This document shows positions 1 to 16,691 of a stretch of 34,518 nt of DNA, one piece after another. Each line of letters begins with the position of its first letter. Within the stretch, counting starts at the first letter, position 1. The DNA is taken from assembly GCA_020349885.1 (NCBI GenBank), contig CP070701.1:2364100-2398617 (forward strand), in the 5' to 3' direction. Made by a program: the position numbers and the translations under genes. This stretch comes from Acidobacteriota bacterium (GTDB lineage Bacteria > Acidobacteriota > G020349885). The notes below the pieces were generated by a model. It saw only the letters and a list, made by a program, of their open reading frames with translations, had not been told where the DNA came from and searched no databases.

Positions 1-935
1 CAGGTACCGCGCTGTCCGTAATCGTCACGCTGTACGTGTCGCTCGCCGTCACCGTGATCGCCGCCGTCGTCTCGCCGCCCGGCGCCCACAGGTACGTGAA
101 CGGAGGCGTACCCGTCGCCGAGCTCGCCACCAGGTCAACGCTTCCGCCCTCGCAGAACGCCGTCGGCCCGCTCGGCGTTATCACCGCCGTCGGAGCCGGA
201 TTCACCGTCACCGCTTCGTTCGCAGACATGTCCACGCACGCAGGCACCGCGCTGTCCGTCATCTCCACGCTGTAGTTACCCGTCGCCGTCGCCGTGTAGG
301 TCGCGTTGGTCCCGCCTGGGATTGGGGCAGCGCCAGCATACCACTGGTACGTGAACGGAGGCGTCCCGGTCGCCGAGCTCGCCACCAGGTCAACGCTCCC
401 GCCCTCGCAGAACGTCGTCGGCCCGCCCGGTGTTATCACCGCCGTCGGGTTCGGATTCACCGTCACCACCTCGCCCGCCGACGTGTCCACGCACGCAGGT
501 ACCGCGCTGTCCGTAATCGTCACGCTGTACGTGTCGCTCGCCGTCACCGTGATCGCCGCCGTCGTCTCGCCGCCCGGCGCCCACAGGTACGTGAACGGAG
601 GCGTCCCGGTCGCCGAGCTCGCCGTCAGGTCAACGCTGCCGCCCTCGCAGAACGCCGTCGGCCCGCTCGGCGTTATCACCGCCGTCGGGTTCGGATTCAC
701 CGTCACCATGATCGAGTTCGTCGTCTCCGTGTCGCCGCAGCCCGGATCGCCATCCGTCACCTCGCAGTAATAATCCCCGGTCGCCGCCGCCACGTAGCTC
801 GAGGCGGTCTCGCCGGCGAGGAGTCCGCCTACCACCTCGTACCACTGGTACGTGAACGGTCCGATGCCGTCGTGCATGGCCGTCAGGGTCACCGAGCCGC
901 CGTCACAGAACGTCGTCGGGCCGCCTGCCGTCGCC
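1..935 (-). repeat. Tandem Ig-like repeat-coding array, alternating A/B units
   Basis: This is part of the giant gene. About four units of 80-85 codons each begin near CEGGSVDL (the outermost is CDGGSVTL) and contain GTPPFTY and ITDSAVPACVD or close variants. Two unit types alternate. The A type carries APGGETTAAITV (near 3-125 and 499-620) and the B type carries YAGAAPIPGG (near 250-400). The two A units are almost identical at the DNA level over about 120 bases, which implies recent duplication or gene conversion. The array continues off the left edge, so the copy number is unknown. Confidence 0.85.
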
Positions 936-3900
936 GTCGCGCTCGTGATGCAGACGCATTCCACGAGATTGCAGGTATAAAGCAGGAAATTCTCGAGGAT
1001 GGTCGACTTCCCTGCGTCCCAACCATGTTCAAGCGTCTGCGTCGAGACGACGACTTTGCCGCATCCAAACTGCCATTCCTGCGCCACTGGCTCCCCGGCG
1101 TTGGCACCGTCGTCCTCAAGGATGGTCTTGGCGGCTACGGGATACATGTCGATGTAAGCGTGCGTGCTCGCACTCCACGAATCGAGCTCAGTGCCCGTAT
1201 CCGTAATGAGATTCGGGGTGTTTACAATGGGATGCTCCGGGTCTACAATGCCCACGGCGTCAGAAAGAACCCGGTAAATGGAAAAATCTCCCGGGAAGAT
1301 GTAGTTATTGACCGCGCCGGTGTTCTCCGCCGCGTGCATCTCGAATATGCCGCCCGTCGAAACCCATGACTCGAACCACGCTTTGTTCGCCACCAGAGCG
1401 TCGTAAAAGGCCAGCGACTGGACGGACGGTATGACCACCTTGTCGAAAGGCGACAGATCCACCACGCCCATATCGGCCGAAGAGAATATCGTGAACGGGA
1501 TTCCGTTGGCCGTCAGGACGTCCTGATTCGACGTATAGCCCCACGGGTTGCTGTTTTGGAAAATGGCCACGTTGCTCGGCCCCGGCGGCGTGTAGCGGCC
1601 GCCCGTGTCCTTATAGCTTGGTGCCACCGTCGTCCCATAGCCGCCCCACACGACGAACTCGGCTCCCGTCCAGACGCCTCCACGGCCGCGGTAGCGCTCG
1701 GTGGGCGCGTCGAGAACCGCCGTCGGCACCCACGAGTTGCTTGAAGGATCGTAGCGTCCGCCCGTGTTCGTGTAGGGAGACCAGCCGCCCCAGACAATCA
1801 TCTCCCTGCCCGTCCACACCGCGGAGTGGTAGTCGCGCACCGAGGGAGCGCCGACCGTCGTGGTTCCCCCTCCGGTCCACGCATCCAGTAAGGGATTGTA
1901 GCGCCCGCCCGTGTTCGTGCGGCCGGTGGCGCTTCCGTAGCCGCCCCAGACAATCATCTCCGTGCCCGTCCACACCGCCGTGTGGTGTCGGCGGCCCGTG
2001 GGGGCCCCTATCGTGCTGGTCACCGCCCAGCCGCCCGTCGAGGGATTGTACCGCGCGCCGTCGTTTTTGTAGGTGGGCGCCGTCGAGCTGTAGCCGCCCC
2101 AGACGATCATCTCCGCTCCCGTCCATACCGCGGAGTGATAGCGGCGCCCCGCGATGGGCGCGGTGATCGATGTCCAGAGGCCCGTCGAGGGATTGTAGCT
2201 CGCGCCGTCGGCGAGGTAGCCAAACGTGGTGCACATCGGCGGATTGTTGTAACCGTAGCCGCCCCAGACGATCATCTCCGTTCCCGTCCACACCGCCGTG
2301 TGGAAGTAGCGGCCGCAGATGGGCGCGGCGGGAAGCGGCGTCCAGACGCCCGTCGAGGGATCGTAGCTCGCGCCGTCGGCATAATAGCTTCCGCTATACC
2401 CGCCCCAGATAATCAGCTCCGTGCCCGTCCACACCGCCGTGTGGTCGCGGCGCCCCGCGAGCGGCGCCGTGGGAATGGGCACCCAGGTATCGTACTCCGG
2501 GTTATAGCGCACGCCGTCGTTCTTGTACGTGGGGCTGCTTCCATTACCACCCCAGACGAACATCCCCTCAATCTCCGGCGCCCACGTTTCCGTGTGGAAG
2601 CGGCGGCCCTGGGGAGGGCTGAACTTCTTATGGATGACGACCGGTTGCGCCGCGCTGTTCCGCGCCACCACCGTGGTTTCCCCCGTGCTAAAACTCAAGC
2701 TCCCGTTCCCGGCCAAATAAGGCGTGGTCACGCCCGCGGCCACCGGGTCGGCGGGGGCCACGACATCAACATTGCCCCCGGTGTCCAACGAGCCGCTAAT
2801 GCTCATAAGTCCCGACCGGTTGAAAATTTCCCACGTGCCGCCGCTCCCCCAGTTATGGTCGCACAGCACCACGACGCCGCCGCCGTTTACGAAGCGCTGC
2901 AGGTCCCTGGCCCAGGCCGCGCCGATGGCTCGAAGCTGGTCAATGCCCGCGTTCTCCTGCTCCGGAATAAGGAGCACGTCCTTTCCCGGAAGGAGGTCGT
3001 CGAGCTGCCCGTAGTCGGAGAATTCCGTGTTGACATAATCGGTAGAAACCGAGTTGATAGCCGCGAGGGTGTTCAGGTATTCGCCCCCGGGCACGTTGTC
3101 CGAGTACTGTATGTAAGAGAGCATCTGGACGGGGCTGGCCGTGGAGAGGAACACGGCGTTTCCGGCGATCCTGTTCTGGTCGGGATTGCTTGCAAAGTAG
3201 TCGTGGCCGATGAGCACGGCGTGCCCCGTGTTCGTCTGGAGGAAGGTCGGCTCCCACTCGCCCAGCGAGCAGACCGCATACACGCCGATGGTGCCCGAGC
3301 CGCTTCCGCCGCAGCCGTTCGAATCCGTTATCGTTACGCTATAGTTGTACGTGCCGGGGGAAGCATAGGCGTATGTGGGATCTTGAAGCGTGGAAGTACC
3401 TATGCCGTCGTCAAAGTCCCAGAAAAAAGTGTAGGGCGGCGTTCCGCCCGAGGGATTCGCGGCAAACTGCACGACCTGCCACACCTCCACGGGGTCTGGA
3501 AAGTCCGTGGGCGAGGCGATTGGATCCACGACGGTGACGGTGCATACCGTGCCGGGTCCCCAAACTTTCGGGATGTAGCCGCATGAGTCGGTCACCTGGA
3601 GCGTGACGGCGTAGACGCCCGGGGAGGGATAGGTGTACGTCGGGTTGGCCGCCGAGGAGGTGGCGCCGTTGCCGAAGTTCCACAGGTAGTCATAAGGCGG
3701 CGTCCCGCCCGAGACGCCCGCTATGAACGAAGCGGAATCGCCCAGGCACACGTTCGTCACGCTGCACACGGGCACGACCGAGAGGTCCGGGCACGGCACG
3801 TAGCCCTCGCAGGTGGTAACCCGCACGTCGTCCACCATCCAGCCGGTGAAGTTGTTCACGACGCCGTCTCCGTCGTTAAAGCGGAAGCGAATCTGGATGT

Positions 3901-6900
3901 CGGATCCCGCGTAGGCGCTCAGGTCAATGTCGCCGGAGTTGAGCCAAATGTCGCTGTCGTCGCAAAGCTCTCCGGTTCCGAGCGGATCCAGCAGCCCTCC
4001 CATAAGCGGAAACCACAAAACTCCGTCCGTAGAGATCTCCACGTAGGCGTTATCGTAAGGGCAGTCGTTACCGCACAAAAACCCACACTCCGTTTCCTTT
4101 CGGAACCAGAAATCAAGGGCCGCGCCCTGCGCCAGGTTGGAGATAACCGGGCTGACGAGGCTTCCGCGTGTAACAACGCCGCCGTGTTCGTACGTGCACG
4201 ATGGAATCGCGAATTCGTCACCGAAGTACCAGCTCGTCGAGGGCGATTTGTAGGCGGGCGAGCACGTCGGCTCAATGATCTGGTGCCAGAGATTGTCCGG
4301 GTCCGGCGGAACGGGCGGGTCGAGCGTCCACCCGCCGACGCCGCCCTCCATGTCCTCGAAGAAGGTGGCCACCGTCACCGTGAAGGTGTCCGTCCACGAG
4401 CCTTCGGCGGCTAGGATGTCGAGCGTGAAATCGAGCACCGTTCCGCACGGCACGGCCGGATGCACCTGCACCTGGAAGTGCGGCGCAATCGAGGTGCCGA
4501 AGCCCGAAGCGGGAATGTTGGGATAGTAGGCCGTGCTGTCCAGGATGGTGACGCCCGGCTCCGTCGTGCTCAAAGCGGCTTTTGGGTCGGTGGCGCCGGC
4601 AAACCAGCTCGGGTTTTCGAGCGTGACCCACAGGAAATTCGTCTCGCCCGGATTGAAGAGGCCGTTCATGTTGCCGCCCGAGTCGTCCACGAAGTGGCTG
4701 TCGTAGCGGAGGAACGGCGCGGCGGGGTTGCAGACCACGGATTCGCACCCCGGCATGTAGAGCACGAAATTTTCGAAAACGAGCGGGCCATCGGCGGTCC
4801 ACGAGGCCGGGATCGTCTGCGTGGTAACGACCACCGCTCCTGCGCCGAAGAACCACTCCATCGCCACGGGCTGTCCGGGATTGGCACCGTCGTCTTCAAG
4901 GATTGTCTTGGCGGCTACGGGATACATGTCGATGTAAGCGTGCGTGCTAGAATTCCACCCGTCCAGCCCCGCGTCCGTGATGGGATTCGGGGTGTTTACA
5001 ATGGGATGCGCGGGGTCTGTTATCGCTACCAAATCCGGTGGATCAGACAGTACCCAGAAAGTTGAGAAATCCCCCGGATAAACGTAAGAATCCAGCGATG
5101 ATCCCACGTTGTTCGCCGCATGCATCTCGAACACTCCCCCCGCCGAGATCCACGCCTCGAACCACGCCTTGTTCGCGACGAGCGCGTCGTAGAAGGGCTG
5201 GTCTTGATTGCCGGTGATGATGACCTTATTGTAAGGCGAAAGATCCACTAAGCCCATGTCGGTTGAACCGAAGACCGAGTAAGGGATTCCGTAGGCGGTG
5301 AGAATGTCGGCGGCGGAAGGGGGCCCCCACCAGTTTGCGACGTCCTCAAAAACCGCCACGTTCGTCGGCGACCCAAAGTCGTCCGCCACCTCCACCACCT
5401 CGCCCGCCGAGAAATTGAAGCAGGGATTTCCGACGCCGTCGTCATAAAATAGCTCGAGCCTGAGGTCAATGGGCGTCCCGCAGGGCACCGCCGAGTCGAC
5501 CGTGAATTCGAAGGGCGTGGACGGCGGCGCGCTCGTTCCTCCCGGAATGTTCGGCGGGTACGAGGCGACGGGTATCGTAACGATCACGCCCGGCGTGGTG
5601 GTGCTCAGCGTGCCGTTTACGTTGAAGGCGTCCTGCACGCCGCTGTTCTTCACCTCGGGCCAGATGCGCACCGTCTCGCCGGGGTTCACGTTCCCGTCGA
5701 AGTTGCCGCAGTCGATGAGCGTGTGGCTCTGGTAGCCGAGGTAGGGAGTGAGCGCCACCCAGTGCGTGAGCACGTCGTTCCCTCCAGACCCTTGCAGGAA
5801 ACTGAGGCGGTACTGGAAATAATCCATGCTGTCCGAGAGCGGGATATCTATACTCATGCTGGAGGTGAGCGGCGTATAATTCCCCCACATCGAGCCGGAC
5901 AGCAGGTCCACAGAGCGGTACTGTATCTCCGCCCAGGCGGGCCCGAAAAGCTCGTAGTACCAGAGCAGGGTCGCGAGATTCACGTTTCCGCCGAAGTCGA
6001 GGATGGGCGACTCGTAGGAGCCGCAGTAGGCGTAGCCGCAAGGAGGACAGTCTCCCGGGCAGTTAATGGAGTTTTCTCCTGGATCGCAGATGCCGTCGCC
6101 GCAGAACATCGCGCCGCACGGGCCGCAGTCGATATCGCAGTTGGAACAATTCTCGGCGGGAGCGCTACAGCACCCGTCGCCGCAGGGGACGACCATCGTG
6201 CCTCTTTGCACGTCCGGCGAAGGCCCTCCTCCCACGATGCCCCCGATGACGAACAGGTCCTTCATGAGGCTTCCCTTGGGGCCGGCCATGACCGCCACAT
6301 GCCGAAAGTACTCCGTAGGCAGGGAGGCGTCGGACACCCAGGGAGAAGAAATATTGCCGTCCGGCGCAAACAAATTCATCGAGACCTCATTGAATCCCGG
6401 GCCCGTGCCTCCTACCACCCACGGCCTGCCGTAGGACGTGACGGCGCGCGTGTAATACACTGGAAACGGCAGCGGATCCGGGAGAACTTCCCAGCCGGCG
6501 AGGGAGCCGTCGTCGTTGATTATCGTCGAATGCACGGTCTGGACGAGGGCGAAGCTCCAGCCGCCGAAGGTAAAGAGGCGTCCGCAGGAGGCCGCCGCGG
6601 CGTGCTCATAAAGGACAGGCGTGGGGGGGTTTGGGAGGGACGGCTCAAAAACGAACGGCGGCAAGTCGCCGTTTATGTCCGGGCGCGTCCTCTCCACCGT
6701 ATTGAGGTAGACTGAACCGTTATATCCGCCGATGACGTAGATCTCGCCCCGGTACGCCACGGCCCGGTGCCCGGTGCGGGGGGTGTTCATGGAGCCGACC
6801 AGTGCCCATGCCCCGAGCGTCGGCGTGCCCCCAGCGTCCCATTGGATGGGGGCGCGGTAGACCCCCGCCGTGGGGGGGCCTCCCTGACTTCCCCCGATGG

Positions 6901-7345
6901 CATACACCCAGTCTCCCACCACCACCGCCTCGAGCTGATAGAGCGGCACCGGAAGCGGGGGGGCCTCGTTCCACGGGCCCAGGTCTCCCGCGTTGTCGAC
7001 GTCGCTGTAGAGGACGGCATTCGTCGGGCCGAAGGGCCCGACTCCGCCGAGGACGAAGACGCGGTTTCCCACCACGACGCCGGCCGCCCAATAAAGCGGC
7101 CACACTCCAAAGGAGGGATGCACGAGCGGAGCCTGGGGGACCCACGCCTGGATGTCGCGGACCTGCGCGAGCGCGACCTCGCCGTCCACGTTGAGCTGCG
7201 TCGCCGTGTTGTCGAACGTGCCGGGAGCGAAATCCTCCTCGGTCGTGTGGCGCAGGGGGAGGGGATCCTGCGCGTACACCGCCACCGGACTCGCCAGGAG
7301 CCCCGCTATAAGCCAAATACCAAGCTGTCGTGTTTTTTGTCGCAT
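1..7345 (-). CDS. Giant modular exported surface protein, 3' end outside window
   Basis: One open frame runs from the ATG at 7345 to the window edge (at least 2448 residues); the frame was confirmed at about a dozen sites. A good ribosome site (GGAAGGG) precedes the ATG. Residues 1-25 form a signal peptide ending VYA before QD. Then, in order: six kelch-like blades (about 40-380, GG motifs such as VYAIGG); a Cys-rich segment with CGDGICDPGE (about 385-440); two NPGET (CARDB-like) domains (about 540-640 and 870-985); a module (about 661-867); a MAM-like domain ending VDDVRV (about 990-1175); two PKD domains with SGGTPPY (about 1190-1350); a GATase/ThuA-like module (about 1355-1580); seven blades with WTGTEMIVWGG (about 1582-1920); a second copy of the 661-867 module (about 1924-2130); then CEGG-type Ig-like repeats to the edge. 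It is likely a secreted or cell-surface protein in adhesion or glycan binding. No catalytic site was identified, and the anchor or sorting domain would lie outside the window. Confidence 0.9.
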   Translation of the reverse strand, partial: MRQKTRQLGIWLIAGLLASPVAVYAQDPLPLRHTTEEDFAPGTFDNTATQLNVDGEVALAQVRDIQAWVPQAPLVHPSFGVWPLYWAAGVVVGNRVFVLGGVGPFGPTNAVLYSDVDNAGDLGPWNEAPPLPVPLYQLEAVVVGDWVYAIGGSQGGPPTAGVYRAPIQWDAGGTPTLGAWALVGSMNTPRTGHRAVAYRGEIYVIGGYNGSVYLNTVERTRPDINGDLPPFVFEPSLPNPPTPVLYEHAAAASCGRLFTFGGWSFALVQTVHSTIINDDGSLAGWEVLPDPLPFPVYYTRAVTSYGRPWVVGGTGPGFNEVSMNLFAPDGNISSPWVSDASLPTEYFRHVAVMAGPKGSLMKDLFVIGGIVGGGPSPDVQRGTMVVPCGDGCCSAPAENCSNCDIDCGPCGAMFCGDGICDPGENSINCPGDCPPCGYAYCGSYESPILDFGGNVNLATLLWYYELFGPAWAEIQYRSVDLLSGSMWGNYTPLTSSMSIDIPLSDSMDYFQYRLSFLQGSGGNDVLTHWVALTPYLGYQSHTLIDCGNFDGNVNPGETVRIWPEVKNSGVQDAFNVNGTLSTTTPGVIVTIPVASYPPNIPGGTSAPPSTPFEFTVDSAVPCGTPIDLRLELFYDDGVGNPCFNFSAGEVVEVADDFGSPTNVAVFEDVANWWGPPSAADILTAYGIPYSVFGSTDMGLVDLSPYNKVIITGNQDQPFYDALVANKAWFEAWISAGGVFEMHAANNVGSSLDSYVYPGDFSTFWVLSDPPDLVAITDPAHPIVNTPNPITDAGLDGWNSSTHAYIDMYPVAAKTILEDDGANPGQPVAMEWFFGAGAVVVTTQTIPASWTADGPLVFENFVLYMPGCESVVCNPAAPFLRYDSHFVDDSGGNMNGLFNPGETNFLWVTLENPSWFAGATDPKAALSTTEPGVTILDSTAYYPNIPASGFGTSIAPHFQVQVHPAVPCGTVLDFTLDILAAEGSWTDTFTVTVATFFEDMEGGVGGWTLDPPVPPDPDNLWHQIIEPTCSPAYKSPSTSWYFGDEFAIPSCTYEHGGVVTRGSLVSPVISNLAQGAALDFWFRKETECGFLCGNDCPYDNAYVEISTDGVLWFPLMGGLLDPLGTGELCDDSDIWLNSGDIDLSAYAGSDIQIRFRFNDGDGVVNNFTGWMVDDVRVTTCEGYVPCPDLSVVPVCSVTNVCLGDSASFIAGVSGGTPPYDYLWNFGNGATSSAANPTYTYPSPGVYAVTLQVTDSCGYIPKVWGPGTVCTVTVVDPIASPTDFPDPVEVWQVVQFAANPSGGTPPYTFFWDFDDGIGTSTLQDPTYAYASPGTYNYSVTITDSNGCGGSGSGTIGVYAVCSLGEWEPTFLQTNTGHAVLIGHDYFASNPDQNRIAGNAVFLSTASPVQMLSYIQYSDNVPGGEYLNTLAAINSVSTDYVNTEFSDYGQLDDLLPGKDVLLIPEQENAGIDQLRAIGAAWARDLQRFVNGGGVVVLCDHNWGSGGTWEIFNRSGLMSISGSLDTGGNVDVVAPADPVAAGVTTPYLAGNGSLSFSTGETTVVARNSAAQPVVIHKKFSPPQGRRFHTETWAPEIEGMFVWGGNGSSPTYKNDGVRYNPEYDTWVPIPTAPLAGRRDHTAVWTGTELIIWGGYSGSYYADGASYDPSTGVWTPLPAAPICGRYFHTAVWTGTEMIVWGGYGYNNPPMCTTFGYLADGASYNPSTGLWTSITAPIAGRRYHSAVWTGAEMIVWGGYSSTAPTYKNDGARYNPSTGGWAVTSTIGAPTGRRHHTAVWTGTEMIVWGGYGSATGRTNTGGRYNPLLDAWTGGGTTTVGAPSVRDYHSAVWTGREMIVWGGWSPYTNTGGRYDPSSNSWVPTAVLDAPTERYRGRGGVWTGAEFVVWGGYGTTVAPSYKDTGGRYTPPGPSNVAIFQNSNPWGYTSNQDVLTANGIPFTIFSSADMGVVDLSPFDKVVIPSVQSLAFYDALVANKAWFESWVSTGGIFEMHAAENTGAVNNYIFPGDFSIYRVLSDAVGIVDPEHPIVNTPNLITDTGTELDSWSASTHAYIDMYPVAAKTILEDDGANAGEPVAQEWQFGCGKVVVSTQTLEHGWDAGKSTILENFLLYTCNLVECVCITSATATAGGPTTFCDGGSVTLTAMHDGIGPFTYQWYEVVGGLLAGETASSYVAAATGDYYCEVTDGDPGCGDTETTNSIMVTVNPNPTAVITPSGPTAFCEGGSVDLTASSATGTPPFTYLWAPGGETTAAITVTASDTYSVTITDSAVPACVDTSAGEVVTVNPNPTAVITPGGPTTFCEGGSVDLVASSATGTPPFTYQWYAGAAPIPGGTNATYTATATGNYSVEMTDSAVPACVDMSANEAVTVNPAPTAVITPSGPTAFCEGGSVDLVASSATGTPPFTYLWAPGGETTAAITVTASDTYSVTITDSAVP
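955..1575 (-). repeat. Second copy of duplicated ~207-residue module inside giant gene
   Basis: This encodes a module that starts NVAIFQNSNPWG and contains DMGVVDLSPFDKVVI, YDALVANKAWFE and STHAYIDMYPVAAKTILEDDGAN. The same module occurs at 4745-5365. Around 1104-1170 the DNA is nearly identical to 4884-4950, with only a couple of mismatches. The fold looks like an alpha/beta GATase or flavodoxin-like domain (alternating hydrophobic strands and glycines). That is a guess, and no catalytic motif is recognised. Confidence 0.8.
4745..5365 (-). repeat. First copy of duplicated ~207-residue module inside giant gene
   Basis: This is the counterpart of 955-1575, starting NVAVFEDVANWWG and containing DMGLVDLSPYNKVII, YDALVANKAWFEAW and STHAYIDMYPVAAKTILEDDG. 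Here it is flanked by NPGET-type domains on both sides. The other copy lies between the second propeller and the Ig-like repeats, so the module moved as a unit. Confidence 0.8.
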
Positions 7346-7563
7346 ATTGTCACCCTTCCTCTCTCCCATAAATGTAGAAACACATTATTTCACCTGAAAA
7401 AACGATAGCACCAGGGGAGATGTTTGTCTGTGATGTGAATCACCTTTTCGTTTTTTCTAAGAAGGCGGCAGATATGGAGAATTTCGCTTTTGCCGGCCGG
7501 AAAAACCGCTGCAGAAGACAGCGCCCCGTCTCCGGCGCTCCCTTACGTCACCGCCGGTCTTAT
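7346..7563. other. Intergenic region between two minus-strand genes
   Basis: These 218 bases carry the upstream region of the giant gene. The half near the gene is AT-richer (7360-7460). A perfect 6-bp inverted repeat AGCGCC/GGCGCT with an 8-base loop lies at 7520-7539, just downstream of the membrane-protein stop. It has no immediate T-run on the minus strand (a short T5 comes about 14 bases later), so it is at best a weak terminator. No small gene was recognised. Confidence 0.5.
7429..7444. promoter_or_regulatory. CRP/FNR-family-like palindrome upstream of giant gene
   Basis: TGTGA-N6-TCACC matches the classical CRP half-site arrangement TGTGA-N6-TCACA at nine of ten positions. It is centred about 90 bases upstream of the ATG at 7345, a reasonable place for an activator site. 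It is a single occurrence and no CRP-family regulator gene is in the window, so it may be chance. Confidence 0.35.
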
Positions 7564-9852: not shown

Positions 9853-10530
9853 ATGGAGCAGCAGAAAAGAAAAGGTTCCGAAGAGCAGATGATCGAAGCC
9901 GACTTCGACCAGATGGAGGTTCTGCTCAAGCGTATCGAGGTCGAGTACAACGTGTACTTCCAGGGGGGGCGCAAGCGACCTCCCGACGACTACATGCGCA
10001 CGCTCAAGAACCTCGTGCGCCGCTACCGCAACATGACGCTCCGGCAGTACCGGCACCGCTTCCGTTTCTCGACGTTCATATCGAAATTTTCAATATACGA
10101 GGAGCGCTGGAACCGCCGCTTGAAAGAGATTGAGGAGAGTGTTGATCGCGGGATAACGGGCGCCCAGCGCGTGACGCTCGAGTCGCTCGGCGTCAAGCGT
10201 GAGGTGCCGCAGGACCTCGACGAAGCGGAACAGGCTGCGGACGTTTCACCGCCCCCGGTTCCCGCCGAGCGGGCACCCGGAGCGGACCCCATGTCTCACC
10301 GCATTTCCGACCTTTCTGAGGACCGCGACGCCGTGGAAAAGCTTTTCAAGGCCTACATGGCGGCCAAGGAGAAAGCGGGCGAGAACGTAAAGAAGCTCCG
10401 CCTCGCAAGCTTCAAGAAGGTGATCGCCAAGCAGGTGAAGGGTTTTCAGGCGAAAGGCGCGGAGCACGTGCAGTTTCAGATCGAGACCAAGGACGGAAAA
10501 GTGAAGCTCAGGGCGGGGCGCGCGAAGTGA
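9853..10530 (+). CDS. MXAN_5187-like C-terminal domain protein, function unknown
   Basis: A 225-residue, highly charged soluble protein. The N-terminal half is helical (DQMEVLLKRIEVEYNVYF, then RTLKNLVRRYRNMTLRQY). A Pro-rich linker lies near residues 128-145. The C-terminus (about 160-222) has the pattern FKAYMAAKEKAGENV ... FKKVIAKQ ... VQFQIETKDGKVKLRA. This resembles the domain seen at the end of Myxococcus MXAN_5187 and relatives, where the equivalent stretch reads VRFQVYVKxGKAALKA; that comparison is from memory. The molecular role is unknown. The stop codon overlaps the GTG start of the next gene by 4 bases (GTGA), which implies translational coupling. Confidence 0.75.
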   Translation: MEQQKRKGSEEQMIEADFDQMEVLLKRIEVEYNVYFQGGRKRPPDDYMRTLKNLVRRYRNMTLRQYRHRFRFSTFISKFSIYEERWNRRLKEIEESVDRGITGAQRVTLESLGVKREVPQDLDEAEQAADVSPPPVPAERAPGADPMSHRISDLSEDRDAVEKLFKAYMAAKEKAGENVKKLRLASFKKVIAKQVKGFQAKGAEHVQFQIETKDGKVKLRAGRAK

Positions 10531-12143
10531 ATTCCCTTTTCCTTTTCGCCTGGCTCGGGGCCTGGGGCGCGGCCGCCACCGCTCCGGCTCCCCCCGCGCC
10601 CGAGCTCTCCCTCGACGAGCGCATCGTGGAGGTGCATGAGCTGATCGAGCAGTATCCCGACGTGCCGGAGTTTCACATCGAGCTCGGCAATCTGTACCTG
10701 GCGAAAAACTGGGACAAGGACGCCGCCCGCTCCTATCGCAGGGCGCTCAAACTGGACGGCCGCAACCTCGACGCGCGCTACAACCTGGGCGTGATCCATC
10801 TCCTGAATCGTGACTTCCGCAGTGCAGCGGCGACCTTCCAGCATGTCGTGAAAAAAAGTTCAAAGCACGCGCGCGCGCACTTTAACCTCGGCGCCGCGAA
10901 CGAAGGGCTGCGCCGCCACGACGCGGCCATCGAGTCCTACAAACGGGCTTTCGAACTCGACCCGGGGCTACGCGAGGTGCGCAACAATCCCGCCCTGGTC
11001 ACGTCCGACCTGATCTATCTGTCGCAGGTGAGACTCTACCTCGAAACGTCGGGCAGCACGGCGCTTCCGGTCATCGCGCCCGATTGGCAGGCGGCGCTTG
11101 CGAAAGCCAAAGCCCGGCCCGAAGCGGAGGCTGCGCCCCGGGCGAGAGCGAGGATTGAGGAAAAACCTTTGCCCCAAGGGTGGCTTGGGAAGCGCAAGGC
11201 GGAACGCGCCGCGCGAAAGGAGAAAAAGGCCGCAGCTCGCGAAGCCAAGCGGGCGGAGAAGAAGGCGTCCAAGGAGGGTGAACCCGCAGAGAAAGCGCCC
11301 GCTTTGGAGGGTGCCGGCAAGGCTCCACCCAAGGAAGCATTGAAGGAAGGGGAAGAGGCGGCTCCGCTCACGCGCGAGGAGCGGCGCGAGAAGCGCAAGA
11401 TGGAGCGCGCCGCACGAAAGGAGGAAAAGGCCGCAGCTCGCGAGGCCAAACGGGCGGAGAAGAAGGCGCGCAAGGAGAAACGCGCCGCGGAGCGCGCGGC
11501 AAAGAAAGAAGCGAAGCGCTTAGAAAAGGAAGCCGAGAAGGCGCAGCGCGAGAAGGAAAAAGAGTCAAAAGCCAGAGAAGAAGCGCCTCCCGTAGCAACG
11601 CCCCCTGTCGCAGCACCTCCTGCCAAAGCACCACCTGCCGCAGCGCCTCCTGCCAAAGCACCACCTGCCGCAGCGCCTCCTGCCAAAGCGCCTCCTGCTG
11701 CAGCGCCTCCATCAACAGTGCCTCCATCAACAGCACCTCCCGCCGAAGCGCCTCCCGCCGAAGAGCCCCCCGCCGAAGCGCATCCATCAACAGTGCCTCC
11801 ATCCGCAGCGCCTCCCGCCGAAGAGCCCCCCGCCGAAGCGCTTCCATCAACAGTGCCTCCATCCGCAGCGCCTCCTGCCGCAGCGCCTCCTGCCGCAGCG
11901 CCCCCTGCTAAAGCACCTCCCGCCGAAGCGCCCCCTGCTAAAGCACCTCCCGCCGAAGCGCCCCCTGCCGAAGCGCCTTCTGCGGAAGAACCTCCTGTTG
12001 AAGAGCCTCCCGCTGAAGCACCCCATACCGGAGCGTTTCCTGCTGAAGAGCCTCCTGCTGAAGAACCTCCCGCCGAAGCGGAACCCAGCAGCGAGGAACC
12101 GGCGGACGCGAATCTACAAGAAGAGAAAAAATCCGACGGCTGA
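10527..12143 (+). CDS. Exported TPR protein with Lys/Ala/Glu-rich and Pro/Ala-rich tail
   Basis: 538 residues starting at GTG 10527, overlapping the previous stop. The N-terminus is hydrophobic (about 1-24) and may be a signal peptide or anchor. Residues about 35-160 hold three to four TPRs (FHIELGNLYLAKNW, ARYNLGVIHLLNRD, AHFNLGAANEGLRRHDAA). Residues about 190-350 are extremely Lys/Ala/Glu-rich, probably one long charged helix. They contain two near-identical copies of a block with AARKEKKAAAREAKRAEKKA. Residues about 350-530 are a degenerate array of PPAEA, PPAKA, PPAAA and PPSTV. The tail could span the periplasm in the manner of TonB- or TolA-like proteins, but no TonB C-terminal domain is seen. 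The TPR part may bind a partner protein. Confidence 0.8.
   Translation: MNSLFLFAWLGAWGAAATAPAPPAPELSLDERIVEVHELIEQYPDVPEFHIELGNLYLAKNWDKDAARSYRRALKLDGRNLDARYNLGVIHLLNRDFRSAAATFQHVVKKSSKHARAHFNLGAANEGLRRHDAAIESYKRAFELDPGLREVRNNPALVTSDLIYLSQVRLYLETSGSTALPVIAPDWQAALAKAKARPEAEAAPRARARIEEKPLPQGWLGKRKAERAARKEKKAAAREAKRAEKKASKEGEPAEKAPALEGAGKAPPKEALKEGEEAAPLTREERREKRKMERAARKEEKAAAREAKRAEKKARKEKRAAERAAKKEAKRLEKEAEKAQREKEKESKAREEAPPVATPPVAAPPAKAPPAAAPPAKAPPAAAPPAKAPPAAAPPSTVPPSTAPPAEAPPAEEPPAEAHPSTVPPSAAPPAEEPPAEALPSTVPPSAAPPAAAPPAAAPPAKAPPAEAPPAKAPPAEAPPAEAPSAEEPPVEEPPAEAPHTGAFPAEEPPAEEPPAEAEPSSEEPADANLQEEKKSDG
11585..12095 (+). repeat. Degenerate 15-bp tandem repeats coding Pro-Pro-Ala-x-Ala
   Basis: About 34 units of five codons, roughly GCNCCTCCNGCNRAA, run through the 3' third of the TPR gene. 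Some blocks recur almost exactly (the AAAGCACCACCTGCCGCAGCG type, and CCATCAACAGTGCCTCCATC), giving higher-order repeats. The array is likely prone to unit gain and loss by slippage. It creates long but meaningless open frames on the opposite strand. Confidence 0.85.
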
Positions 12144-12156
12144 TTAGGGCTGCCGC

Positions 12157-15100
12157 CTAGCGCAGCATCACGAGGACTTTGACCGTCCCGGTGCCCGCGC
12201 CGAGCGTCCCCATCGCCTTGCCGAGGATGGTTCCGGGGACGGGGCTCAAGGCTTTCATCGCGTGGCCCGGCGTCGGAGAAGCCACGAGGAGGTCGCCCGC
12301 TTCGACGGCGCCGTATCCCGCGTCCACCTTGCACGCCACCGTCCCGGAGAGCGCCACCGCCGCGTGCGTAGCCTTGAAGATTTCTTCAAGCTGCGCCCAT
12401 GCGGCGTCCTCGGCCTCCTTGTCACCGACGGCGCGCGCGTCGTCTATCCGCGCCGCAAGCTCCGGCTCCATGGCTGCAATCTGTCTGATGCTCCTCCCAA
12501 GCTCGACGCCGGGTGCCGCGGAAACGATACCCACGACCCTCGGGTCGGACTCGAAAGCGCAACGCTGAAGCACGCTGGGATTCTGGGGATCCATCACGAG
12601 CACGTCGCCCGCCTCCACGGTCTCGCTCACGGGATGGTACTCCGCCAGGTCGAGCGATGCGGGACGCACGGAGCCTTTTAAATAGAGATTCCCTTCCTCG
12701 TCCACGCGGAAGACTTCCTCCTGCAGGCCTTCCTCGCCGTCGCGAAAGACGGAGAAGCGCGCCGCGTCGTTCGCGTCCTTGTCGAGGGCGATCTGCAAAT
12801 TTCCGTCCATCTCCTGCCTGCCGGTCTTCCGGTCGGGCGTGCGCAGGTCGAGCTCGTCGCGCAGCGCCGCCTCGCGCCCCTTGCCCTCGCGCCGGAGCTC
12901 CCGCACCGCGCCGAAGAGAAGTGCTTCGGCCTTCTTGACGTCGACGAATTGGTCCGCCGTCGGGTCTTCCGGCGTCGGCGTGCCCCGGATGATTGCCGGG
13001 ACGGTGGCGGGATCCACGATGAGTTGCACCTCGCCGGTTCGCTGGTTGGTCACGGGGATACCCTTCATACCGTCTATCAGGTCGAGGTCGGGGTATGTGT
13101 CAAAAGAGAGCCAGTCGTCATCACTACCGGCACTAAGATAAAAACGAAAACCGTCCGCCCAGACGAGGTTCCAGTAGCGGTTCGATGCTCCCAAGTCGAT
13201 CAAGTCGGAAGTATGCGGCGCAAGGTCGGTGGAGACCTGGAGCTGCAAAGTGGAATCGTTCCACCTTAGATATTCCTGGCCCCCGTTGAAGTAGAGATAG
13301 TGGTCATCGTCGGTGGCCTCCTGACCGATATAAAGATCTCTCCCTATACCGGCATAGTCCGGGGTGTAAATCCCCCACGTGCTGCCGGTGAAATACCCGC
13401 CGTAGTTTGTTAAGCCGCCGGCTGCATCGCCGTAGACGCCGTAGAGTGTGCCGGTGCCGATCGCCTCGCCCTTCACGCCCGTGCTATTCGAATGACCCAG
13501 CACGCCGATGTTGTCACCGGGAGTGGTGGCCCCGGTCGAGATTCCGGCCACACCGATTTCCAGCCCGTTCCAGTCCGCCGAACCCACGCCGTCGAAATCT
13601 GTGGCTCCCTGCACGCCCAGGTAGCCGCGGGTGGGGCCGGCATCTCCGTCTCCGCGCACGGCGCCGTAGCCTCCCGTCGCACCGGAGCCGTAGGTCGAAT
13701 CGACCCGCCAATTGCTTGCCTGCGTCTTCGTCCCCGCGTTGAGGTTTTCCGCGTAGGCATAGCCCGACGTGTAAAGCCCCCAGTTCACCGAACCGCCCGA
13801 GGCCGTGCCGTAGACGCCGTAGTTCGTTGCCGCGGTGCCCGAGGCGATGCCGTAAACGCCGAGGTGTAAGCCGGTGCCTGTATCGCCGCTCGAACTGAAG
13901 GACCCGCCGTAGTGCGACGCGGCGGCCGTGCCGTTCGATTCGCCGAAAACTCCATAGTCGGGGCCGGTAAAATGTCCCCCGTACACTGAACCCGCGCCAT
14001 AAACGGCGTAGTCGCTGTTCGGCGCGGTGCCCACGCCGATCGTCTCAGAGAACGTGATCGCGCCCGCCGCCGTGTCGTCCACGTCGCTTCGCAGGAACTG
14101 CAGCGAGTCGAGCGTGTCCAGCGTATCCGCGTCACCCGCAGCGTGTGTATGGAGTGCGGTCGTCCCGCCGTCCGTGAGGCCCGTCACGTCCGCCGCCGTC
14201 AGATCGTCGTCCGCGCCGCCGCCCAGGTCGAGAGTCCCGCCCACGTAGGCGTCGTTCGGCGTGTAAAGACCCCAGTTTATCGCGCCGCCAAAAGCCCTGC
14301 CGTATACGCCGTAGTGCGTTCCCTCACCCGAGGGCTCTTCGGCTTGCCCCCAAACGCCATAATGATTGCCTTTGCCGCCCCCTGCAATTCCCTGAACACC
14401 GAAATGCGGTCCCGTGCTTTCGGCGTCTCCCGTTGCTTCCGCCGTAAGCCCGTGGACAAATTTGTCGTTTGAGGCTCCAGAAGCATTAGCCTGGCTGTAC
14501 ATTCCGTAGAAGGAAGACGAGGTAGCCGTGTCAGCATTTACCGCCAGGGCACGCACGCCGTAGAGCGCGGCCTGTGAAGTTTCGTCCACATAGCCGTTCA
14601 CGCCTCGGGTGGTCCCTCTAAAGTTACCGCCGTAAAAAGACCCCTCACTATACACCCCATAGCTGTTGATGGGCGCAACGCCCACCCCGAGATGGCCGCC
14701 TTGAACGTATAGATCGTCGCCGACGTCCACCGTTGCATTCAGCGTATCCACGAGGCTACCCCGCACGTCCGTCGTCGCCGCCGTGAACGTGATCACGCCC
14801 GCCGCCGTGTCGTCAACGTCCTTGCGCAGATAGCGCCCGTCGCCGTCCGTAGTGTGCACGTGCAGCGACGTATCTCCTCCGTCCGTCAGGTCCGTCACGT
14901 CCGCCGTCGTCAGGTCGTCGTCCGCGCCGCCGCCCAGGTCGAGAGTCCCGCCCACGTAAGCGTCGTTCGGCGTATAGATGCCCCAGGTCGACCCCAAGAA
15001 ATACCCGCCGTAATTCGTCGCGCCACCCGAGGCATTACCGAAGACGCCGTAGTGCGCACCTCCCGATGTGATACTGTTCGCAACGCCATGAAGCGCGAAG

Positions 15101-16596
15101 TGGTCGCCCGTGCTGGAGGCGTCTCCGATGGCGTGGCCGCTTACACCATGAACGGTCTTCTCGTTGTCCGTGCCAAAGGCGTTGGCGGTACCGTACGTTC
15201 CGTAAAGGAAGCCCGTTCCCGTTCCGCCGTTCTGCGCGGAATTGTGGGAGCCGTAGCCCGTCGATGCGGTAGGGCTCGCGATGCAGCGAGCGCCGTATTC
15301 GTTGCCCGCGAAGTATCCTCCGTAGTTCGTCGCGCCGCCCGAGGCCGCGCCGTAGACGCCGTGGTGGATGCCTGACGCCGCGGGAAGGATCGCTTCGCCG
15401 TAAACGCCGTAGTGGTCGCCCTTGCTGGAGGCGTCTCCGATGGCGTGGCCGCTCAGGCCATGGAGGGTCTTTGCGTTGTCCGTGCCCGAGGCGGTGGCGG
15501 TGCCGTACGTTCCGTAAATGGCGTCCGTTCCCGTGTCGTTGCTTTGCACGGAATTGTAGGCACCGTAGCCCGTCGACGCGGAGACGCTTGCCACGCTGCG
15601 AACGCCGTATCTGCCTCCTTGGAAGTATCCTCCGTAGTTCGTCGCGCCGCCCCCGGATATTCCGTAGACGCCGTAGTGCGAGCCGCTCGTTGTGGCAAGG
15701 GACGCCTCGCCGAAGACGCCGTAATGATTGCCCGTGCTTGAACCGTCTCCGCCGGCAAAACCGCGCAGGCCGTAGACGGACTTTGAGTTGTCCACGCCCT
15801 TGGCGCTGGCGGTGCAGTAAGCCCCGAAAAGTTCGCCGCCTCCCGTGTCGCTGTTTTGCGCTGAATTGAAGGCGCCATAGAGTGTGCTTGCCGTATTTTC
15901 GTTCACGGAACTATTGGAGCCGCGCACGGTGCCTTTAAAATAACCGCCGTAGGTCGGGTTGGGCGAAACGCCCACCCCGATGTTTCCACCCAGAACCCAC
16001 AGGTCATCCCCTACGTTCACCACGGAATCCGTCGTATCCACGAGGCTCCCCCGCACGTCCGTCGTCGCCGCCGTGAACGTAATCACGCCCGCCGCCGTAT
16101 CGGCGATGTCCTTGCGCAGGAATTGCGAAGAATCAAATCCGTCGAGCGTGTCGGCGTCTCCCGAGCTCGCAGCCGTCCCCGCGTTCAAAGCATACGCCGC
16201 CGAGACGACGCGAATTCTCGGCGTCATCGCCGGGTCGGCACCGACCTGCACTTCCACATAGACCGCCGAGTAGTCGCGAAACACGTCCGTGAGCGCCGTG
16301 TACGTGCCGGGACCCGAGCCGTCCGTCACCGTGCCGCCGCCGAGCGAGACGTTGAAGAGGCCGCCCGTCACCGTGACGGCGCCGCTTCCGGCCGCCGTGT
16401 GGGAATCGATGAGAATCTCGTTCCCTGCCGCCGGGTCGTCGAAGAAGCGGAACGTCATGTCGTACGCTCCATCAAGGGGCGCGTCTGAAGAATCTCGCAG
16501 GACTCCCTGGAAGTTTACGAGATCGGGCGGCGCCGCCTGCGCGAAGGCAAGCGTGGCGGCCGCAAACATTGCAAGGCAAATGGCAGTGTTTTTCAT
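12157..16596 (-). CDS. Large exported tail-fibre-like repeat protein
   Basis: 1479 residues. The start at 16596 is chosen because a signal peptide (MKNTAICLAMFAAATLAFAQ) follows and AGAGG precedes it; the frame stays open to 16683, but that part is promoter DNA with tandem repeats. Residues about 21-150 form a beta-rich domain (VNFQGVLRDSSDAPLDGAYDMTFRF). The middle alternates fibre-like segments (DADTLDGFDSSQFLRKD, DDTAAGVITF) with YGVYG, ASGGATNYGGYF and GVGVAP repeats. The last ~200 residues ([42 protein letters not shown]) form a C-terminal domain shared by many bacterial fibre-like surface proteins. It probably forms a trimeric or beta-helical surface fibre for adhesion. No phage genes are nearby, so it is not an obvious prophage part. 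It converges on the TPR gene with 13 bases between stops. Confidence 0.85.
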   Translation of the reverse strand: MKNTAICLAMFAAATLAFAQAAPPDLVNFQGVLRDSSDAPLDGAYDMTFRFFDDPAAGNEILIDSHTAAGSGAVTVTGGLFNVSLGGGTVTDGSGPGTYTALTDVFRDYSAVYVEVQVGADPAMTPRIRVVSAAYALNAGTAASSGDADTLDGFDSSQFLRKDIADTAAGVITFTAATTDVRGSLVDTTDSVVNVGDDLWVLGGNIGVGVSPNPTYGGYFKGTVRGSNSSVNENTASTLYGAFNSAQNSDTGGGELFGAYCTASAKGVDNSKSVYGLRGFAGGDGSSTGNHYGVFGEASLATTSGSHYGVYGISGGGATNYGGYFQGGRYGVRSVASVSASTGYGAYNSVQSNDTGTDAIYGTYGTATASGTDNAKTLHGLSGHAIGDASSKGDHYGVYGEAILPAASGIHHGVYGAASGGATNYGGYFAGNEYGARCIASPTASTGYGSHNSAQNGGTGTGFLYGTYGTANAFGTDNEKTVHGVSGHAIGDASSTGDHFALHGVANSITSGGAHYGVFGNASGGATNYGGYFLGSTWGIYTPNDAYVGGTLDLGGGADDDLTTADVTDLTDGGDTSLHVHTTDGDGRYLRKDVDDTAAGVITFTAATTDVRGSLVDTLNATVDVGDDLYVQGGHLGVGVAPINSYGVYSEGSFYGGNFRGTTRGVNGYVDETSQAALYGVRALAVNADTATSSSFYGMYSQANASGASNDKFVHGLTAEATGDAESTGPHFGVQGIAGGGKGNHYGVWGQAEEPSGEGTHYGVYGRAFGGAINWGLYTPNDAYVGGTLDLGGGADDDLTAADVTGLTDGGTTALHTHAAGDADTLDTLDSLQFLRSDVDDTAAGAITFSETIGVGTAPNSDYAVYGAGSVYGGHFTGPDYGVFGESNGTAAASHYGGSFSSSGDTGTGLHLGVYGIASGTAATNYGVYGTASGGSVNWGLYTSGYAYAENLNAGTKTQASNWRVDSTYGSGATGGYGAVRGDGDAGPTRGYLGVQGATDFDGVGSADWNGLEIGVAGISTGATTPGDNIGVLGHSNSTGVKGEAIGTGTLYGVYGDAAGGLTNYGGYFTGSTWGIYTPDYAGIGRDLYIGQEATDDDHYLYFNGGQEYLRWNDSTLQLQVSTDLAPHTSDLIDLGASNRYWNLVWADGFRFYLSAGSDDDWLSFDTYPDLDLIDGMKGIPVTNQRTGEVQLIVDPATVPAIIRGTPTPEDPTADQFVDVKKAEALLFGAVRELRREGKGREAALRDELDLRTPDRKTGRQEMDGNLQIALDKDANDAARFSVFRDGEEGLQEEVFRVDEEGNLYLKGSVRPASLDLAEYHPVSETVEAGDVLVMDPQNPSVLQRCAFESDPRVVGIVSAAPGVELGRSIRQIAAMEPELAARIDDARAVGDKEAEDAAWAQLEEIFKATHAAVALSGTVACKVDAGYGAVEAGDLLVASPTPGHAMKALSPVPGTILGKAMGTLGAGTGTVKVLVMLR
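13340..15970 (-). repeat. YGVYG/GGYF repeat-coding region of tail-fibre-like gene
   Basis: Numerous imperfect units code for GVYGxASGGATNYGGYF-like segments, together with YGAYNSxQ and SSTGDHYGV variants. DNA similarity between units is strong, for example between 15120-15200 and 15420-15500. The larger cassette VGGTLDLGGGADDDLT(A/T)ADVT occurs twice (near 14190-14250 and 14890-14960). This implies expansion by internal duplication. Confidence 0.8.
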
Positions 16597-16628
16597 GGGT
16601 TTTCCTCTTTTTTTTGGATTGATTGTTT

Positions 16629-16664
16629 CATAACCCCTGGTTGTAACATAACCCCTGGTTGTAA
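16629..16664. repeat. Two tandem exact 18-bp direct repeats upstream of fibre gene
   Basis: CATAACCCCTGGTTGTAA occurs twice back to back (16629-16646 and 16647-16664), 33-68 bases upstream of the ATG at 16596. Each copy contains AACC-CCT-GGTT, a small inverted repeat typical of a dimeric regulator half-site pair. It is likely an operator or an upstream leader element of the fibre gene. No regulator was identified. Confidence 0.55.
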
Positions 16665-16675
16665 GGTATGAGTCT

Positions 16676-16691
16676 ACCACCAAACGGTGGT
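16676..16691. repeat. Perfect 6-bp inverted repeat
   Basis: ACCACC-AAAC-GGTGGT is a stem of six with a loop of four. It lies between the tandem 18-bp repeats and the paralogue remnant. There is no T-run on either side, so a rho-independent terminator is unlikely; an operator or transcript hairpin is possible. Confidence 0.4.

Follow-up and report, generated by a model that had tools for sequence, protein, structure and literature searches.

The window analysed here, a stretch of 34,518 nucleotides, is the final segment (2364100-2398617) of a 2.4-Mb scaffold from an Acidobacteriota bacterium. At its left edge, a first-pass annotation noticed a giant exported protein whose domain order it could not assign to any described protein. 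The question is what this protein is built from, how it ends, and what it may do outside the cell. We consider it rather probable that the frame encodes the N-terminal ~2450 residues of a giant Sec-exported mosaic rod with putative binding heads, which ends in a tail domain. The source organism belongs to a deep-branching Acidobacteriota lineage; in the nearest-relatives search, all 39 other genomes were related at phylum level only.

The open frame and its modules

One uninterrupted minus-strand frame is present at positions 2-7345 of the window, corresponding to 2448 codons from the ATG at 7345. Neither an in-frame stop nor a frameshift was seen in it, and the single frame of at least 2448 residues read by the annotation stands. 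The ATG at 7345 is preceded by a ribosome-binding-like GGAAGGG site. With the alternative start, ATG 7369, the minus strand is open at 2-7369 for 2456 aa. The features of the frame are as follows.

7268..7345 (-): signal peptide MRQKTRQLGIWLIAGLLASPVAVYAQ (residues 1-26; read from the sequence; GGAAGGG site before the start)
6182..7138 (-): kelch propeller 1, six GG blades (residues 70-388; Pfam Kelch_1/Kelch_6; kelch structures, E to 4e-40)
6026..6190 (-): Cys-rich segment, CGDGxC...ENC..C..DCG..C repeats (residues 386-440; read from the sequence)
5375..5740 (-): CARDB-like module 1 (residues 536-657; recurs many times in the own genome)
4742..5374 (-): GATase/ThuA-like module 1, GG-VF-E-M-H motif (residues 658-868; AF2 and Foldseek)
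4337..4732 (-): CARDB-like module 2 (residues 872-1003; own-genome HMM)
3788..4336 (-): MAM-like or choice-of-anchor-J-like module (residues 1004-1186; InhA-like_MAM, E 2.6e-4)
3290..3787 (-): two PKD domains (residues 1187-1352; PKD_4, E 1e-25)
2576..3289 (-): third, divergent GATase-like module (residues 1353-1590; hhalign to A4)
1586..2575 (-): kelch propeller 2, seven GG blades (residues 1591-1920; PF24681, E 1e-43; kelch structures, E to 1.5e-16)
962..1585 (-): GATase/ThuA-like module 2 (residues 1921-2128; 63% identical to module 1; DNA repeat, 78-88%)
2..961 (-): Ig-like repeats, cut by the scaffold gap (Ig_3, E 1e-9)

The frame runs from a six-bladed kelch through Cys-rich, CARDB-like, GATase-like and CARDB-like segments to a MAM/choice-of-anchor-J-like module. 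This is followed by two PKD domains, the divergent third GATase-like module, a seven-bladed kelch, a GATase-like module and Ig-like repeats. Most of the annotation's claims agree with this list. The signal peptide supports the claimed export. Two kelch propellers are indicated by the full sets of six and seven GG motifs together with significant Pfam matches (Kelch_KLHDC2-type, E 1e-43; Kelch_1, E 5e-15), and full-length kelch-enzyme models remain below cut-off (TIGR03548, 32.7 vs 243.2 bits; NANM, 14.6 vs 45 bits). The claimed Cys-rich segment is found as the listed repeats, and the PKD and Ig-like repeats are detected by Pfam at the listed E values. Two claims were borne out in part, using module HMMs built from own-genome copies and from loci retrieved from other genomes. 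The CARDB-like segment is real and recurs across the own genome, whereas Pfam CARDB has no match in the window protein; in paralogs, this region lies inside matches to NF038112/TIGR03900 (myxosortase-dependent M36 peptidases, MXAN_5808 models). The MAM-like module has a weak Pfam match (E 4e-3 on the whole protein, 2.6e-4 on the module alone), and the homologous region of a paralog is matched as choice-of-anchor J (NF038128).

The frame leaves the left edge of the window without a stop codon. The leftward extension proposed in the annotation was performed, but it did not reach a C-terminal anchor. In the parent scaffold, a 100-N gap lies directly before window position 1, and on its far side is the end of an IS3 transposase, unrelated to the giant frame. 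Thus the frame is ended by the assembly, not by a stop. The Ig-like repeat unit is ~255 bp, and two 212-bp copies are 96% identical. The likely cause of the break is this identity between the last repeat and a copy ~500 bp away. Such 100-N gaps recur within other giant repeat-bearing ORFs of this genome (L009:12001-12100, L011:9078-9177, L012:7705-7804 and L014:5690-5789). The scaffold order at these gaps is not trustworthy, and the gap of the window at least joins unrelated sequence.

A gapped scaffold, with gaps inside repeat-rich giant ORFs and joins that can be arbitrary, as at the IS3 end, might also produce a giant frame as a chimera from misassembled repeats of different genes. However, no module join interrupts the frame, and near-identity (96%) is confined to the Ig repeats, where the assembly did break. 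The kelch domains and the GATase-like modules are not collapsed copies, because each has diverged (63% protein identity between GATase-like modules 1 and 2). We therefore regard a chimera as very improbable.

According to searches within the own genome, ~21 other ORFs match the window protein via one or another module, and one of them has ten kelch-2 matches. Since these ORFs reuse its modules, the window protein is a lineage-specific mosaic; it does not stand alone but belongs to a set of ORFs with common modules, and the gene probably grew by reuse of these modules. A 1983-aa ORF (L010:3357-9308, minus strand) combines a DNRLRE domain and the Ig-like repeats of the window with 14 CXXCH motifs. 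It would be a multiheme cytochrome on a window-type Ig stalk, which fits a generic stalk role. In another locus (L041, around 5367-5466), a low-complexity CADCDD repeat ends a 2262-aa kelch-bearing ORF and adjoins a scaffold gap. The window itself also encodes a 1508-aa repeat protein with YGVYG-type repeats and no Pfam match (12157-16683, minus strand), and a TPR protein whose C-terminal region is proline-rich and extensin-like (10527-12143, plus strand).

Predicted fold and distribution of the GATase-like modules

The GATase-like domains were claimed from sequence patterns, and a fold check per module was suggested. AF2 on a nine-row alignment of the module gave a model with pLDDT 80 and pTM 0.83. 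Its Foldseek matches are STM3548, GH42 enzymes, a mannosidase, GATase1 proteins, IFT52 and the ThuA-like protein 1t0b, with TM scores of 0.42-0.63 (0.63 for 1t0b) and E values down to 8e-9. The check places the module among GATase1/ThuA/GH42-M folds, and residues 658-868 and 1921-2128 are predicted to adopt the flavodoxin-like alpha/beta fold of the class I GATase-like/ThuA superfamily. The claim is supported for these two close modules, and a divergent third is added between the PKD domains and kelch 2 by hhalign (E 7.8e-5, probability 62%); the single-sequence AF2 model of this third module was uninformative. In the window modules, Pfam found nothing meaningful, and no ThuA (PF06283) match was above cut-off. 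A PDB sequence search with the module profile returned chance matches only.

Across nine diverse modules, the motif G-G-x-[LF]-E-[FMY]-H is conserved with E82 and H84 invariant, and no Cys nucleophile is conserved. Amidotransferase catalysis is unlikely, because the module has this Glu/His motif instead of a conserved Cys. Assignment as a catalytic class I glutamine amidotransferase was rejected on the same ground.

Another type of catalysis is conceivable. The protein may be an extracellular enzyme scaffold, with GATase/ThuA-like modules that use the conserved Glu/His to act on sugars or peptides, and kelch domains that position a polymeric substrate. Relatives of the module match Pfam ThuA (E 2e-11; four of nine members), one of them exceeding the cut-off over the whole protein (44.8 vs 33.4 bits). 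The nearest folds include GH42 enzymes, the mannosidase and 1t0b; E and H are invariant in GG-x-[LF]-E-x-H; and some relatives are fused to subtilase. On the other hand, the module has no conserved Cys, and the GH42-M and IFT52 domains of the same fold are structural, not catalytic. Furthermore, apart from the GATase-like modules, the window protein has no enzyme domain that Pfam recognises. We judge an enzyme scaffold to be unlikely.

The preferred reading is a binding rod. After secretion through Sec, beta-sandwich spacers (CARDB-like, MAM/choice-of-anchor-J, PKD and Ig-like) would form a long rod that displays the two kelch propellers and the three GATase-like domains, which lack a conserved nucleophile Cys. 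The most likely role of the kelch and GATase-like domains is to bind glycans, proteins or matrix polymer at the cell surface or close to it, and the annotation's putative surface adhesin or glycan scaffold is plausible. The domain and fold searches yielded no ligand or enzyme assignment for the window protein.

Among 297 Acidobacteriota genomes, strong module matches were found in ORFs of ~1700-5700 aa in five genomes, several with two to four modules; genomes G029, G042 and G067 have them in secreted-type proteins of 313-401 aa. Weaker partial matches occur in further ORFs of this set, and several of these are read as resembling PIG-L-type deacetylases. A GTDB contig scan with the two window modules alone gave no match. 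With a broader alignment it gave six loci: Ignavibacteriales, Eisenbacteria, two Acidobacteria (one of which, G254, JALOKP010000001, is already among the genome set), one unclassified bacterium and one Sigynarchaeota MAG. The linkers of the relatives are HYDIN/ASH-type Ig domains, and some relatives carry subtilase. The window-type kelch is absent from every other GATase-module protein checked in the 297 genomes and the contig scan. The same domain order was found in neither, in line with the annotation's view that it fits no described protein. The Sigynarchaeota protein (L099:3260-7477, plus strand) has two GATase-like modules closer to those of the window than most bacterial copies are. In the module tree, the window and Sigynarchaeota modules are grouped at 90/89 support. 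Since this support is only moderate, no transfer is claimed.

The C-terminal domain of the paralogs

Several complete paralogs finish with similar domains of ~100 aa, here called the tail domain. It also terminates three orphan fragments, each of which opens at a scaffold gap within the Ig repeats that the window protein shares; no exact overlap connects the window end to any of these C-terminal fragments. A tail profile detected 16 copies in the own genome, and the tail lies 0-9 residues before the stop in all 15 copies checked. Each of the checked ORFs that contains no gap starts with a signal-peptide-like stretch (judged, as throughout this survey, by a simple hydrophobicity score), and some large paralogs have no tail domain. 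By analogy with the paralogs, the lost end of the window protein most likely carries the tail. The unassembled part would consist of further Ig-like repeats followed by the ~100-aa tail.

An approximate tail consensus, derived by eye, reads Y-x-[IV]-Y-[EQ]-G ... C ... [YF]-[YF]-[LV]-V-x(6)-E-G-S-x-G-x(2)-S-x(2)-x-E-R ... C-P-stop, and most copies end in Cys-Pro or Cys-x(n)-Pro. Seven own-genome members matched no Pfam or NCBIfam family, and 14 members of the wider set had no NCBIfam match beyond chance. In other Acidobacteriota, the tail is at or near the stop in 15 of 15 copies of a first set and in 29 of 30 copies of a second, overlapping set, each of the latter from a different genome (one being the own genome). 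No transmembrane-like stretch was found in the 30-copy set. A wider profile matched 51 of 199 genomes in a scan whose per-genome copy counts are lower bounds. The single-contig Acidobacteriota genome G058 has 98 matches. In a sample of 20 of these taken down the ranking, the tail is C-terminal in 17 and the start is signal-peptide-like in 15. A few weak copies lie internally. The Ignavibacteriales, Sigynarchaeota, Eisenbacteria and M3-22_Bin_282 genomes yielded no copy of the tail. The tail loci are L155-L174 (G058), L103-L109 and L125-L154. A literature search found nothing on the tail domain or on kelch giants in Acidobacteria.

The annotation listed a type IX sorting signal among the possible ends. 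The TIGR04183 T9SS tail has no match in the own genome (control genomes were positive), and SprA is absent there (SprA_N; positive in G297 and G298). Likewise, 20 tail-bearing genomes lack SprA, which two control genomes do have. A T9SS cargo was rejected for this genome, the window protein's own C-terminus lying in the gap.

Two readings of the tail are weighed here. It may be a mere terminal fn3/Ig-like spacer without sorting function, kept terminal by shuffling that reuses gene ends. In size and, by eye, in sequence pattern it is reminiscent of an Ig/fn3 sandwich, no gene dedicated to secretion was linked to it, and the few weak internal copies also suit a spacer, to which we give a somewhat less than even chance. 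Against a spacer, the tail is C-terminal in 29 of 30 and 17 of 20 sampled copies, mostly with the shared Cys-Pro-type ending, and it occurs in up to 98 copies per genome, mostly on proteins with signal-peptide-like starts. The tail could also be, though this is less likely than not, the sorting tag of an undescribed, SprA-independent outer-membrane export or attachment system in much of the Acidobacteriota, similar in kind to that of the T9SS C-terminal domain, with up to ~100 clients per genome and the window protein as a giant one among them. In our model of the rod, the tail would substitute for T9SS by contributing to export or to holding the protein at the surface.

Comparison with known systems

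Giant mosaic surface proteins are a known kind. The window protein adds a new module order to them, as well as an extracellular GATase-like module common to bacteria and an Asgard-archaeal MAG. It also leads to a tail without Pfam or NCBIfam match in the searches made and, in the sampling made, found only in some Acidobacteriota. To our knowledge, little is known of how Acidobacteriota export proteins and keep them outside the cell. The candidate sorting tag makes protein export and retention in this phylum directly testable.

With the KLHL/Keap1 kelch domain and NanM-type mutarotases, the window protein shares clear kelch repeats and blade motifs, but the match is limited to the repeat, and the NanM/mutarotase models are far below their cut-offs. 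ThuA, the GH42 middle domain and class I GATase share the predicted fold of the window modules, whereas the latter have neither a Pfam match nor a conserved Cys and sit in a giant exported rod. The giant HYDIN/BACON-Ig proteins of Acidobacteriota, Ignavibacteriales and Eisenbacteria (L090-L095, L097 and L101) are also exported and have between one and four copies of this GATase-like module, but their ORFs are without window-type kelch or CARDB-like modules. Some GATase-module relatives (L097 and L102) end in FlgD-like T9SS-type tails. Like the tail domain described here, the T9SS C-terminal domain (TIGR04183) closes many exported proteins as a segment of ~70-100 aa; the two differ in sequence signature, and 20 tail-bearing genomes are without SprA.
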